Source: a virus | IMG/VR virus record: IMGVR_UViG_3300044630_003687 | Span: 1 to 20,397 of that record | Direction: 5' to 3' (one strand) | DNA length: 20,397 bases | Part shown: positions 15,708 through 20,397 of the stretch, piece after piece | Numbering within the stretch: position 1 is the first letter of the stretch | Layout: every line of letters begins with the position of its first letter | Position numbers and translations under genes: made by a program | The notes under the pieces: generated by a model | What the model was told of the DNA's origin: nothing | Database searches by the model: none | What the model saw: the letters and a program-made list of their open reading frames with translations, nothing else

Positions 15708-16358
15708 TTAGAATTCCTTCCTATATCCTGGTGGAGGTGCCTTCACGAGATCAGCTGGGAGGAACACGAATTCTGGGAGATCTGAGGGTTCTGGGGAATC
15801 CTGTGAGTCCTCCCCGGACACTGCACTATCGGAGTGTCCGTAGTGTCCGTCTTCTTTGGACACTGCACTATGCGAGTGTTCGTAGTGTCCGTCCCTTCCC
15901 TCTGTCGGGGTGCCCTCACCGCTTTCTGGACCCGGATTAATCGAGGACATCGGGGCGCCCTCGCCTATGACTTTGACAGCCTCTCCTGGGGTGGTTAACA
16001 AAGCTGTCGGGGCACCCTCACTGATTTCTAAGGTATCCTCCCGCTTAGGCAGGTGGAACGTGGGGATGTTTATAGTAATCGGGGTAAATGCCTCGCCGTC
16101 GCGCCCCGTTATCTCTTGGCGGCTGAGGCTGGGTGTAAATCTTTCAGAGATCCTTAGCATAAGGTCCGCAGTCTTCAGGGGATCTTTCTTAGCTCCCTCA
16201 GCTAACCATTTTTCCATATTAGGTAACTGATTAGCTAATAACATAGCAAATGCTTGTTTAATCTGGGCATTTATCTCAGATAACGTCCCAATAGGCTTTC
16301 CTGCGGGGTTCCCAGACTCTCCGGGCTGCCATAAATGCTTAGGTCGTCTTCTCGGCAT
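15708..16358 (-). CDS. Putative terminase small subunit (DUF5681-like N-terminus) with repetitive C-terminal tail
   Basis: The N-terminus has LWQPGESGNPAGKPIGT, the 'F/WxPGxSGNPxGRPxGT' pattern of DUF5681-like proteins often found beside TerL. A helical part (IKQAFAMLLANQLPNMEKWL and DPLKTADLMLRISERFTPSLSR) and the strand EITGRDGEAF follow. From about residue 110 the protein becomes low-complexity, with three EGAP/GEGTP-type repeats and two 14-residue DGHYxHSxSAVSxE(D) repeats, ending in PPPGYRKEF. It would bind the packaging initiation site and recruit TerL. The tail is probably disordered. The gene is GC-rich compared with the window. The HTH protein at 16521 is an alternative TerS candidate. 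Confidence 0.55.
   Translation of the reverse strand: MPRRRPKHLWQPGESGNPAGKPIGTLSEINAQIKQAFAMLLANQLPNMEKWLAEGAKKDPLKTADLMLRISERFTPSLSRQEITGRDGEAFTPITINIPTFHLPKREDTLEISEGAPTALLTTPGEAVKVIGEGAPMSSINPGPESGEGTPTEGRDGHYEHSHSAVSKEDGHYGHSDSAVSGEDSQDSPEPSDLPEFVFLPADLVKAPPPGYRKEF
15816..15893. repeat. 42-bp repeat with six GTGTCC-type motifs inside the putative terS
   Basis: Positions 15816-15851 and 15858-15893 match at 33 of 36 positions, at a 42-bp offset. Each copy holds one inverted GGACAC and two direct GTG(T/C)CC-like motifs at 9-bp spacing (15816, 15834, 15843; 15858, 15876, 15885). The first copy forms a perfect 7-bp inverted repeat (GGACACT...AGTGTCC). In protein it is a 14-residue repeat. 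It could be a TerS-binding (pac-like) site, since several headful phages carry pac inside terS. Alternatively it is simply a low-complexity protein repeat. Confidence 0.75.
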
Positions 16359-17577: not shown

Positions 17578-17835
17578 TTAGAATGTATTATTATGTCTGT
17601 CTAGATTGGTTCCCAGCCAACTTGCTGCTAGGGCATAGAGTGGAGTAGTCCAATGGGGATGTGAGATTAGAAGTATGATTAGTGTGACCCACATAGGTAA
17701 GCAAGTCGGACATAGCCAAGGCTTGTCGGGTAGTCTTAATTTCTGGACTAGTTTAATCCATTGGGGTTGGTTCATCACGGTTAGTGTAGCTAGTGTGGTG
17801 ACTGCGGTTAGGGCTAGGGTTTCAATACTATTCAT
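17578..17835 (-). CDS. Small membrane protein with CPTC motif (85 aa)
   Basis: Two hydrophobic segments are visible: residues about 5-22 (ETLALTAVTTLATLTVM) and about 45-70 (LPMWVTLIILLI, then PLYALAASWLG). Between them is PWLCPTCLPMWV, a CxxC pair at the membrane face, a pattern seen in short phage membrane proteins ('CxxCxxxW'). It has no lysis motif and is not next to an endolysin, so a holin role cannot be claimed. It overlaps the sigma-like gene by 8 bp. ATG at 17835. Confidence 0.7.
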   Translation of the reverse strand: MNSIETLALTAVTTLATLTVMNQPQWIKLVQKLRLPDKPWLCPTCLPMWVTLIILLISHPHWTTPLYALAASWLGTNLDRHNNTF

Positions 17836-18319
17836 ATATGATTCTTTCTTGCACGTGTTTACGAATGCGGTTAATAGTTAAGGTTATAGAAGTACGGGGT
17901 ATTCCAGTCTTGCGACTTAAGGCCGAGGCGTTTCTGCGCTCGTCAATATACACCATGAGCAATTTGCTTTCGTACCAGCTTAACTCTTTGTCTATTATAC
18001 TATCTATCTGCGAGAAAATTCCTGCTTCTTCTTCCTCTGTATCGGGAATGTTCTCATGCGAAGGCAACAACTCGGAGTGCGCGTGTTTGTAATTCTTATA
18101 GAAAGGTGAGGTCTGACTCTTCCAGAGATTCATAGCTATTTTTAGCGTGTAGAAAAAGGCACCGCCTGAATCCACTATCGTCTGAGCATTCTTGTGCTCT
18201 AGAAAAGCTATCACAGTTTCTGATAACAAATCTTCTGACAGATGTGAACCTCCGGCTATTCTTTTAACAGCTTGTCCTAGTATTTCGTAGTGTGTTTCAA
18301 TCCATTGGGAAGTTGTCAA
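17828..18319 (-). CDS. Sigma-70-like transcription factor (163 aa)
   Basis: Residues about 15-50 (AVKRIAGGSHLSEDLLSETVIAFLEH, then FFYTLKIAMNLWKS) resemble sigma region 2 with the 'xDxxxDLxxEtxxxxxxx' helix. Residues about 118-160 form region 4 with an HTH (YESKLLMVYIDERRNASALSRKTGIPRTSITLTINRIRKHVQ). An acidic linker separates them. This is the build of short ECF-type sigma factors encoded by some Bacteroidota phages, where they may direct the host polymerase to late promoters. The start appears to be TTG at 18319: an in-frame stop lies just upstream and the next Met would remove region 2. It is divergent from the plus-strand winged-helix gene with 26 bp between starts. Confidence 0.7.
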   Translation of the reverse strand: MTTSQWIETHYEILGQAVKRIAGGSHLSEDLLSETVIAFLEHKNAQTIVDSGGAFFYTLKIAMNLWKSQTSPFYKNYKHAHSELLPSHENIPDTEEEEAGIFSQIDSIIDKELSWYESKLLMVYIDERRNASALSRKTGIPRTSITLTINRIRKHVQERIIYE

Positions 18320-18345: not shown

Positions 18346-18777
18346 ATGAGCATGTTTAAACCCCATGCAAATAAGCCATTTCCTTTGGCTTTGTTCGAGA
18401 ATTCTAGAATTAAACCCTCGCATATATTCACGTGGTGGGCTTTATGTAACTCTTTGGAATCCGATAGAACAGGTTGGATCACTATCTCTCGGCCTGATTT
18501 ACAAGATCTTATTAATCGCGAAGTTCCTGGGCGTAATACCAATCCAGTTATTCTGTTAGAAGTGTTACAGGATTTAGGGTTTATTGAATTAAAAAGATTC
18601 CGCAAAGATCCTTATGCTCGTAACACCACAACCGAAATGCAAATTCGAATTTGTACTGGAGCTTGGAAGTTGACCTTAACTCGTAAGACCCAATCCCAAA
18701 CTCCAGAACGACGAGCTTATTATAAAGAGAGATACCGTCTTAAGCGATTAGAATTAACTAGTCGTGTTATAGTTTAA
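18346..18777 (+). CDS. Putative winged-helix DNA-binding protein (143 aa)
   Basis: The start is ATG at 18346 (or 18352, MSMFKPH). Residues about 25-90 look like a winged helix: HIFTWWALCNSLES, WITISRPDLQDLINREV, ILLEVLQDLGFIELKRF. The wing ends with Arg/Lys. The C-terminus is strongly basic (RRAYYKERYRLKRLEL). Its size and place opposite the sigma gene suggest a regulator of the 26-bp divergent intergenic region, or a replication accessory. It ends 24 bp inside the end of the convergent ATPase gene. It is the only plus-strand gene in the right half, unlike the operon around it. The fold call is from helix pattern only. Confidence 0.6.
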   Translation: MSMFKPHANKPFPLALFENSRIKPSHIFTWWALCNSLESDRTGWITISRPDLQDLINREVPGRNTNPVILLEVLQDLGFIELKRFRKDPYARNTTTEMQIRICTGAWKLTLTRKTQSQTPERRAYYKERYRLKRLELTSRVIV

Positions 18778-19314
18778 TAACCTAGAGTCTTGTCCATCCA
18801 CAATGATTATATCGCATAGGTCATAAAATCTAGATACCACTTCTTTACCAAAGATTTGAGTTAATTGTTCTAAATTGTAGTTACTTACGAAATAGTTATA
18901 ACCAGCATCTACGGATTCTAACGGACGGATTCCGTTCTTAGCCTTTAACCAATTATCATAACGGCGTTTAACTAGACTCTTAACTGGATGTTTAACATTT
19001 CCATATTCCACAATAGCGCTTTGTTCATTAGCACCAAGTTCATCAATTAGTAAATAGTAATCATCTAATGAACCTTTACTACGGTAGGAATCTTCTATAA
19101 TTTCCTCGTGGGTTAGTCTATGACCAAATCGTTTAGAACCAGTGACGGGGTTAATCCATTTCCAATCTAGGTATTCGTTCATCATAGTTGTCTTCCAGTT
19201 ACCTGTGTTACCTAAAAACATCTTACCCTTTTCGGTATGCAATCCGAAGTTAGAGTAATTCTCTTCATCTTTTAAGATTTCTAATAAATCTGTGTTTGGG
19301 ATTCTTGTTAGCAT
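18754..19314 (-). CDS. DnaC/IstB-like AAA+ ATPase, putative helicase loader, altered Walker A (186 aa)
   Basis: The P-loop is FLGNTGNWKTT (residues 33-43): Gly35 and Lys41/Thr42 are present but the glycine before Lys is Trp40 (codon TGG). Walker B is YYLLIDELG (Asp91/Glu92), sensor I is FVSNYNLEQL (Asn145) and an Arg finger-like position is Arg162 (VVSRFYDLCD). This order matches DnaC-type helicase loaders, which deliver the replicative helicase to the origin with the initiator. It lies 12 bp after the initiator-like gene. The short length (no long N-terminal domain) fits a phage loader. Whether the Trp abolishes ATP hydrolysis cannot be seen here. No DnaB-like helicase is in the window. Confidence 0.75.
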   Translation of the reverse strand: MLTRIPNTDLLEILKDEENYSNFGLHTEKGKMFLGNTGNWKTTMMNEYLDWKWINPVTGSKRFGHRLTHEEIIEDSYRSKGSLDDYYLLIDELGANEQSAIVEYGNVKHPVKSLVKRRYDNWLKAKNGIRPLESVDAGYNYFVSNYNLEQLTQIFGKEVVSRFYDLCDIIIVDGQDSRLLNYNTTS

Positions 19315-19326
19315 ATTATTTGGATT

Positions 19327-20082
19327 TTAAAAATTATCTTGAGTTAGGACTCCTCCTTTAGGTTTTGGTTTGTTATTAGTGTTATTCTTGTTACGATCTA
19401 TAGCTTTTTTAATACTCTGACCGTTCATCATCTTGTTCTTGAAGAATGTAATAATCCATTCGTTTTGTAAATGTATTAGATCTGGACCAAATTCTCTTAG
19501 CATTTTAATAATACTTTCTTGAACCTCTTCATCTAAAGGAAAGAAATACTTATTGTAACAAGTTGTTAGGGTGGAAGTCGTTTCGCTAGATTTCCATAAA
19601 GAAGTTAACTCTCCCCATCTTGCCATCTTACGAACTTGTTGCTCCGCTGCAATTTGTTCATATTGAGGATCAATCGTTTTAGAAGCACGCGTATGTGTTC
19701 TTTTAACTTGTTTATTAGATTGTATATTATGGGTGAAGTTTTCTTCATGGCCCCCATGAAGATTTCTTCCGGGGTCCCATGAAGTATTCTGCATGGGGGG
19801 ATGAAGATAGATTTTTCTTATGCTCATATCTTTATCCGTGAAAGACAAATCTCTTTTAATAAATCCTGCATCCTCTAATTCTTTTATAGAGTTCTGAATT
19901 GTTCTTTCTGTACATTTTAAATCCTTAGCAAGTTTTTGATTGTGTGCAAAAGCATAACCTTTTAGCTTGGTAAGGTTCCGGATAATACCGTAAAGTAGTT
20001 TAGACGTATTAGATAACGTCTCGTGATAAAGTACGGGTGCAATAATATTTGCATCGTACGCTCTTTGTTCTTGATCTTCCAT
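19327..20082 (-). CDS. Winged-helix replication initiator, lambda O-like organisation (251 aa)
   Basis: Residues about 20-85 form a winged helix of the HTH_36 type (ETLSNTSKLLYGIIRNLTKL, AHNQKLAKDLKCTERTIQNS, IKELEDAGFIKRDLSF), the usual fold of phage initiators. Residues about 93-118 form a Pro/Gly/His/Asn-rich linker (encoding the iteron-like repeats), then a basic segment (KQVKRTHTRASK). A C-terminal helical domain (about 175-230) and a basic Asn/Lys/Pro-rich end follow. The plan of DNA-binding N-terminus, linker carrying the origin and C-terminal loader-interaction domain resembles lambda O. The loader-like ATPase gene follows directly. ATG at 20082. Confidence 0.75.
   Translation of the reverse strand: MEDQEQRAYDANIIAPVLYHETLSNTSKLLYGIIRNLTKLKGYAFAHNQKLAKDLKCTERTIQNSIKELEDAGFIKRDLSFTDKDMSIRKIYLHPPMQNTSWDPGRNLHGGHEENFTHNIQSNKQVKRTHTRASKTIDPQYEQIAAEQQVRKMARWGELTSLWKSSETTSTLTTCYNKYFFPLDEEVQESIIKMLREFGPDLIHLQNEWIITFFKNKMMNGQSIKKAIDRNKNNTNNKPKPKGGVLTQDNF
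19701..19814. repeat. Iteron-like repeats and adjacent A/T-rich stretch (candidate replication origin)
   Basis: Within the initiator gene the word (G/A)TGAAG(A/T)(T/A)TTCT(T/G)C recurs at 19733, 19756 and 19779, with a fourth, weaker ATGAAG at 19801. The starts are 23, 23 and 22 bp apart, about two helical turns. A perfect inverted repeat, CTTCATGG-CCC-CCATGAAG (19743-19761), spans two units. Next to them 19701-19730 is 26 of 30 A/T, a likely unwinding element. This is the arrangement of the lambda origin (iterons inside O followed by A/T-rich DNA). The origin role is inferred. Confidence 0.7.
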
Positions 20083-20098
20083 ATATTATTATTTTATT

Positions 20099-20397
20099 CT
20101 AGTAACTAAAATCTCTAAAGAGATCTTCGTTCACATCGCAATCATCTTCTAATCTGGACAAATTACATGTCATATAACGACGATCGTCTTCTTCCCATGT
20201 GTTTATATAGCCAACAGATTCTAACTCAGCTATGAGCGTTTTAACACGGTCTACGCGCATTCCAAAACAAGTAGAGATATAATCATTACTTGCATAACAT
20301 TCTCCAGACTTCTGTTGGAAGTTCCATACAAAATTTAGTATGAGTTTTTCCTCGACTGTGAATCCTTTATGACTCCAGATAGGTTTACAAAATATTA
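20099..20397 (-). CDS. Winged-helix protein, C-terminal part (cut by right edge)
   Basis: An open frame of 99 codons enters from the right edge and stops with TAG at 20099-20101, 16 bp before the initiator ATG. It holds GFTVEEKLILNFVWNFQQ, YASNDYISTCFGMRVDRVK and LIAELESVGYINTWEEDDR, a complete winged helix (helix, helix, recognition helix, wing) like the one in the next gene. An acidic tail follows (SRLEDDCDVNEDLFRDF). It may be a second initiator domain, a paralogue, or a replication regulator. The start and any N-terminal domain are outside the window. Confidence 0.65.
   Translation of the reverse strand, partial: IFCKPIWSHKGFTVEEKLILNFVWNFQQKSGECYASNDYISTCFGMRVDRVKTLIAELESVGYINTWEEDDRRYMTCNLSRLEDDCDVNEDLFRDFSY

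Follow-up and report, generated by a model that had tools for sequence, protein, structure and literature searches.

A candidate replication origin in the linker-coding part of a phage initiator gene and its covariation with the recognition helix

Gene Content of the Locus

The window, i.e., the whole stretch of DNA analysed here, is a viral record of 20,397 bp (IMGVR_UViG_3300044630_003687) and is probably a fragment. Relatives of its terminase occur in phages of Nonlabens, Bacteroides, Riemerella, Flavobacterium and others (~32–35% identity) and among IMG/VR contigs (53–81% identity), and because of these matches the host is likely, but not proven, to belong to the Bacteroidota.

The initiator gene (19327..20082, minus strand) encodes 251 amino acids, comprising an N-terminal winged helix, a linker (approximately residues 95–137) and a C-terminal helical domain, as assigned from Pfam, PHROG and a structure model compared by Foldseek. 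The N-terminal match to PF13730 (HTH_36) reaches E=1e-11 and 44.9 bits against a gathering cut-off of 25, and the PHROG matches are to replication initiation and DnaD-like helicase loader proteins. A predicted DnaC-like AAA+ helicase loader gene (18754..19314, minus strand) lies 12 nt downstream; its assignment is based on weak matches to phrog_50 and phrog_3277, and it aligns with ORFs of the homologous loci L018 and L022, which bear the Walker A motif GPxGVGKT. In many relatives, a loader or helicase gene likewise comes after the initiator. Direct searches of IMG/VR found no close relative of either the initiator or the loader.

Upstream of the initiator, a second HTH_36 protein is encoded in truncated form (20099..20395, minus strand; PF13730, E=1.5e-9), and no array of the kind described below is present in this small partner gene. 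The tandem arrangement of a small HTH_36 gene and an initiator gene recurs in L002 (4348–4653), L006 (3894–4196) and L020 (5217–5537). Further observations in the window, all on the minus strand, are a weak PHROG_1740 match (phage RNA polymerase sigma factor) at 17828–18319, a protein at 1239–2948 with repeats KFLDPNPCWEGYEAYGLKDDGTPNCVPIK at 99-bp spacing, and a 42-bp repeat near 15792 (HYEHSHSAVSKEDGHYGHSDSAVSGED) in the protein immediately upstream of the large terminase (15708–16358).

A Three-Unit Array within the Initiator Gene

The linker-coding part of the initiator gene contains three 16-bp dyads placed 23 bp apart, each built from two 6-bp half-sites that flank an A-rich 4-bp centre. 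Array search, matrix matching, half-site analysis and reading frame define iteron 1 as ATGCAG-AATA-CTTCAT (19779..19794), iteron 2 as CGGAAG-AAAT-CTTCAT (19756..19771) and iteron 3 as ATGAAG-AAAA-CTTCAC (19733..19748), all on the minus strand. A matrix made from these units finds the same three as its top matches in the whole 20.4 kb (18–19 bits), while the next match scores 14.8 bits and the maxima in shuffled sequence average 11.6 bits, the highest being 17. The array is located 288–350 nt inside the gene. Its units begin at codons 97, 104 and 112, which are three different codon positions, and a protein repeat therefore does not explain it. With the protein held fixed, the 3-copy array score of 42 was matched by 0/5000 synonymous-codon permutations and 0/5000 synonymous resamplings. 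C or G runs (ACCCC, GGGG) separate neighbouring iterons in the window (19733–19800) and in most arrays of L101–L124.

An earlier note on this DNA had described three good copies and one weak copy of a unit at 22–23 bp spacing, together with a palindrome and an A/T stretch, as a candidate origin within the linker-encoding region of the gene for a winged-helix initiator. The three good copies are borne out by the synonymous permutations, and the spacing agrees with the TGAAG starts at 19734, 19757, 19780 and 19802 (spacings of 23, 23 and 22). The weak fourth copy (19802..19819, minus strand) is rejected as an iteron, as it is absent from the 15 best matrix matches and has a different register, with a spacing of 25 when measured by dyad. 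The palindrome TCTTCATGG-CCC-CCATGAAGA (19742..19762, no strand assigned) is real and has 9-bp arms, but it is not a separate element: it consists of the facing halves of the abutting iterons 2 and 3, and it was equalled in 9/300 synonymous resamplings.

Directly 3′ of the array in the direction of the gene, the AT-rich stretch AATATACAATCTAATAAACAAGTTAAAAG (19700..19730, minus strand) was identified by its A/T content as a candidate unwinding element. The 26/30 A/T stretch that had been noted at 19701 is present, and 0.6% of the 30-mers in the window are equally AT-rich.

Recurrence of the Layout in Homologous Loci

Two sets of homologous loci were compared. The first set was assembled from initiator-like genes near related terminases, by iterated profile search, and from 26 phage records, giving 36 initiator loci. 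In 32 of these 36, the best 3-copy array of ~3.3 kb sits within the initiator gene or, in L002, just past its end. The arrays of this set are found ~260–385 nt from the gene start, just after the winged helix–turn–helix (wHTH), with a spacing that is almost always 21–24 bp. Both the unit sequence and the protein sequence of the linker vary between phages, while most homologues share the array with its spacing, its position and an AT-rich tail. Retention of the linker with loss of the 22–23 bp spacing had been named as an observation that would speak against an origin; the opposite is seen.

The terminase of L002 is ~62–63% identical to that of the window, and L002 was the sole match in a DNA pattern search for the window unit. 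Its units (CCCCATGAAAGAATTTACATAG and similar copies) are spaced 24 bp apart, lie just 3′ of the stop codon of a gene that encodes a winged-helix protein of 114 aa and are followed by AATAATACAAGTCTTAATAATACAAGT. In L002, the units are therefore independent of coding. A 23-bp array is also present in L050, although its initiator carries a DnaD_N-type domain. L006 and L030 are without an array, and L004, L015 and L020 have only weak ones. In the first two, a short wHTH gene without an array (L006, 4576–4740; L030, 5600–5720) seems to be followed by hairpin-rich sequence, and the origin of these phages may be located elsewhere or be of another type. A four-member initiator alignment was too divergent to serve as a search query.

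For the independent set, a winged-helix alignment was scanned against bacterial genomes and IMG/VR, which yielded 160 new loci. A few of the loci from IMG/VR nearly duplicate first-set members, and independence is therefore given by unique helices and not by raw counts. The best array of the entire locus lies 200–520 nt after the initiator start in 134/157 loci. Under a strict test (p<=0.025 and score>=37), 109 arrays pass, with spacings of 22, 23 and 24 only, compared with 13/1024 control regions from the same loci. Across the approximately 190 related genes compared in all, the embedded-array layout is thus widespread. In two loci, L222 and L224, a strong 23-bp array precedes the matched HTH_36 start by ~180 nt and does not lie inside the gene; it is possibly a displaced origin. 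In L127 (Enterococcus termitis), a strong array with an 18-bp period is found ~1030–1160 nt after the initiator start.

The AT-rich tail is shared by the homologues as well. In nearly all homologous loci, the corresponding stretch ranks among the most AT-rich, and in the independent set the best 30-mer found up to 80 nt 3′ of the array has a median rank of 0.35% of the locus. GC3 is 0.13 in the 18 codons of this region, whereas the remainder of the gene reaches 0.35 (p=1e-17); in GC-rich genes the two values are 0.19 and 0.51. In addition, the motif AATAATAC was found in 94/109 linkers versus 0.006 per 270 nt elsewhere. The exact motif is absent from the AT element of the window, which has a diverged version. 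The low GC3 and the near-confinement of AATAATAC to linkers point to selection on the AT-rich element at the DNA level, and not for amino acids alone.

Covariation of the Recognition Helix and the Half-Site

The recognition helix of the initiator, TERTIQNSI (residues 58–66; 19885..19911, minus strand), was located by alignment and by covariation with half-site bases 3 and 5; R60 is helix position 3 and N64 is position 7. The half-sites of the homologues were extracted by a rule based on the dyad and the A-rich centre, which may assign a wrong register to a few loci; the registers of L114 and L121, both in the first set, were set by hand.

A rule for half-site base 3 (Arg at helix position 3 to G, Val to A and Lys to C) was fixed on the first set before the second was analysed. 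In the second set, Arg3 is accompanied by G3 in 18/18 new unique helices, versus 17/55 helices without Arg (p=8e-8), and Val3 by A3 in 6/7. The Lys part of the rule failed validation, with G in 8/10 Lys helices. Arg at helix position 7 occurs with C at base 5 in 18/19 helices of the second set versus 2/54 otherwise (p=6e-14). This second relation was first noticed in the test set itself, and a back-count on the first set showed that it holds in the 11 additional unique helices. These Fisher values ignore shared ancestry; the counts use unique helices only, and other stretches of the same domain served as controls.

A blind mutual-information scan of all domain columns against the six bases, from which the window was excluded, ranked the pairs helix 7–base 5 and helix 3–base 3 first. 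Prediction of the half-site from the nearest helix was better than a majority baseline, while other 9-residue stretches of the domain fell short. The first half of the domain is near-identical between SP120 and PMBT9, two Staphylococcus phages, but they differ both in the helix, by a change of Val to Arg, and in their units (TTAACA and TAGAAA). The window obeys both relations: its helix has Arg3 and Asn7, all six half-sites carry G3 and A5, and the half-site predicted from its helix neighbours is ATGAAA, compared with the observed ATGAAG.

It is probable that a simple recognition code extends across HTH_36 phage initiators of several phyla, in which helix residue 3 sets base 3 (Arg–G, Val/Ile–A, Glu–G) and residue 7 sets base 5 (Arg–C). 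With such a code, a small number of amino acid changes, together with changes in the units ~200 nt distant within one gene, would let a phage alter the specificity of its origin, and sequence alone would suffice to locate the origin of an uncultured phage and to predict most of its iteron. A literature search found no paper on this recognition code; it covered openly accessible papers only and is therefore weak evidence of absence, and within the searchable literature the family-wide code looks new.

Relation to Known Initiators and Origins

The structure model of the initiator is confident for the winged helix only, with pLDDT values of 42–64 in the C-terminal domain. The best PDB matches of the N-domain model in Foldseek were 4pql, 4pt7 and 5kbj, entitled ‘Structure of initiator’ and ‘Structure of Rep-DNA complex’, and 4pta and the DnaD N-domain 2v79 followed lower down. 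Of these, 4pql, 4pt7 and 4pta are Rep structures of staphylococcal multiresistance plasmids. A search of solved structures by sequence gave nothing useful, and no Pfam match of the initiator to RepA_N (PF06970) was present up to E=0.1. Judged from the model, the fold is nearest to staphylococcal plasmid Rep initiators of the pSK41 type, and the predicted resemblance to RepA_N plasmid initiators is one of fold alone.

The placement of an origin inside the initiator gene is already known from several systems. In pSK41, the Rep N-domain binds four Rep boxes placed centrally in rep, and the linker between the winged-helix N-domain and the C-domain, a domain order shared with the window protein, is encoded by the origin itself (PMC5703833). 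In contrast to this Firmicutes plasmid with its RepA_N initiator, the window encodes an HTH_36 protein and, next to it, a DnaC-like loader of the phage's own. Gene 38 with oriL of Bacillus phage SPP1 is a further precedent, and SPP1 has a second origin, oriR (PMC6316719). It differs from the window in initiator sequence and host, and no counterpart of its second origin was seen in the 20.4-kb fragment.

In phage lambda, the middle of gene O contains iterons, each an inverted repeat that includes an A-tract, and next to them an AT-rich tract; the replication gene P is found in the same region (PMC7466680). The window shares with gene O and ori-lambda the dyad iterons with an A-rich centre and the adjoining AT-rich stretch inside the initiator gene, but it has three iterons where lambda has four, and O-like PHROGs match its initiator weakly. 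Lambda, to which the earlier note had compared the locus, holds as a precedent, but closer ones are rep of pSK41-type plasmids and gene 38 of SPP1. The Lactococcus phages phi31.1 and ul36.1 (orf269/ORF235) have an HTH_36 initiator and a 22–23 bp array at the same place, with the core AAAG-AAAA-CTTT compared with GAAG-AAAA-CTTC in the window. Unlike the window, they have a Firmicutes host, A at half-site base 3 and Val at helix position 3. In agreement with what had been stated before, no characterised origin of this kind was found for Bacteroidota phages in openly accessible papers, which is weak evidence of absence.

Proposed Function and Alternative Explanations

The recurrence of the array, its position and its AT-rich tail in homologues, and the covariation of the units with the recognition helix, support the reading of this locus as a candidate origin. 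Very probably, the 100-bp stretch is the replication origin of the phage, embedded where the initiator gene encodes the linker and acting through binding by the initiator, opening and helicase loading. From anatomy and precedent, we infer that winged-helix dimers of the initiator would bind the three 23-bp-spaced dyads and that R60 would recognise the G found at base 3 in every half-site. Adjacent dimers, about two turns apart, could stack along one face of the DNA, and this stacking would strain the AT-rich stretch at 19700–19730 until it opens. The C-terminal domain and the DnaC-like loader from the adjoining gene may then load the replicative helicase, and initiation in the cell would start from this site. 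GC skew in the window is uninformative, the record being a 20.4-kb fragment. In Cellulophaga phage phi39:1 (KC821626), the minimum of the detrended GC skew (26.4 kb) lies ~1.3 kb from the array (~25.05 kb), a signal too weak to use.

Since the covariation demonstrates a match between helix and unit and not replication as such, the units could also be operators for autoregulation, at which the initiator blocks transcription within its own gene while replication begins elsewhere. However, a position 288–350 nt inside a gene is unusual for an operator, an AT-rich tail with AT-biased synonymous codons suits strand opening, and the same layout is an origin in SPP1, pSK41 and lambda, so that we regard autoregulation as unlikely. 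Still less probable is that the array is a former origin that came with the gene, the phage now starting elsewhere, e.g., from another origin in a part of the genome that was not sequenced; the fragmentary record and oriR of SPP1 (PMC6316719) leave room for such a site, but the initiator gene is intact, the loader adjoins it, and G3 and A5 are kept in all six half-sites as the helix predicts. Finally, many homologues have a low-complexity linker (NNTSINNTS), as would suit an array that is a by-product of linker protein sequence or low complexity, but that explanation is refuted by the three reading frames, the 0/5000 synonymous shuffles and the L002 units beyond the stop codon.

Implications

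The origin reading provides a concrete candidate origin for a phage lineage related to Bacteroidota phages and, with the helix–half-site relations, a general route to origins in uncultured phages. The proposed protein–DNA code could be checked with few mutants. The origin reading would also account for the linkers of phage initiators, which look unconserved as protein because their sequence would be dictated by the origin that is written into them.
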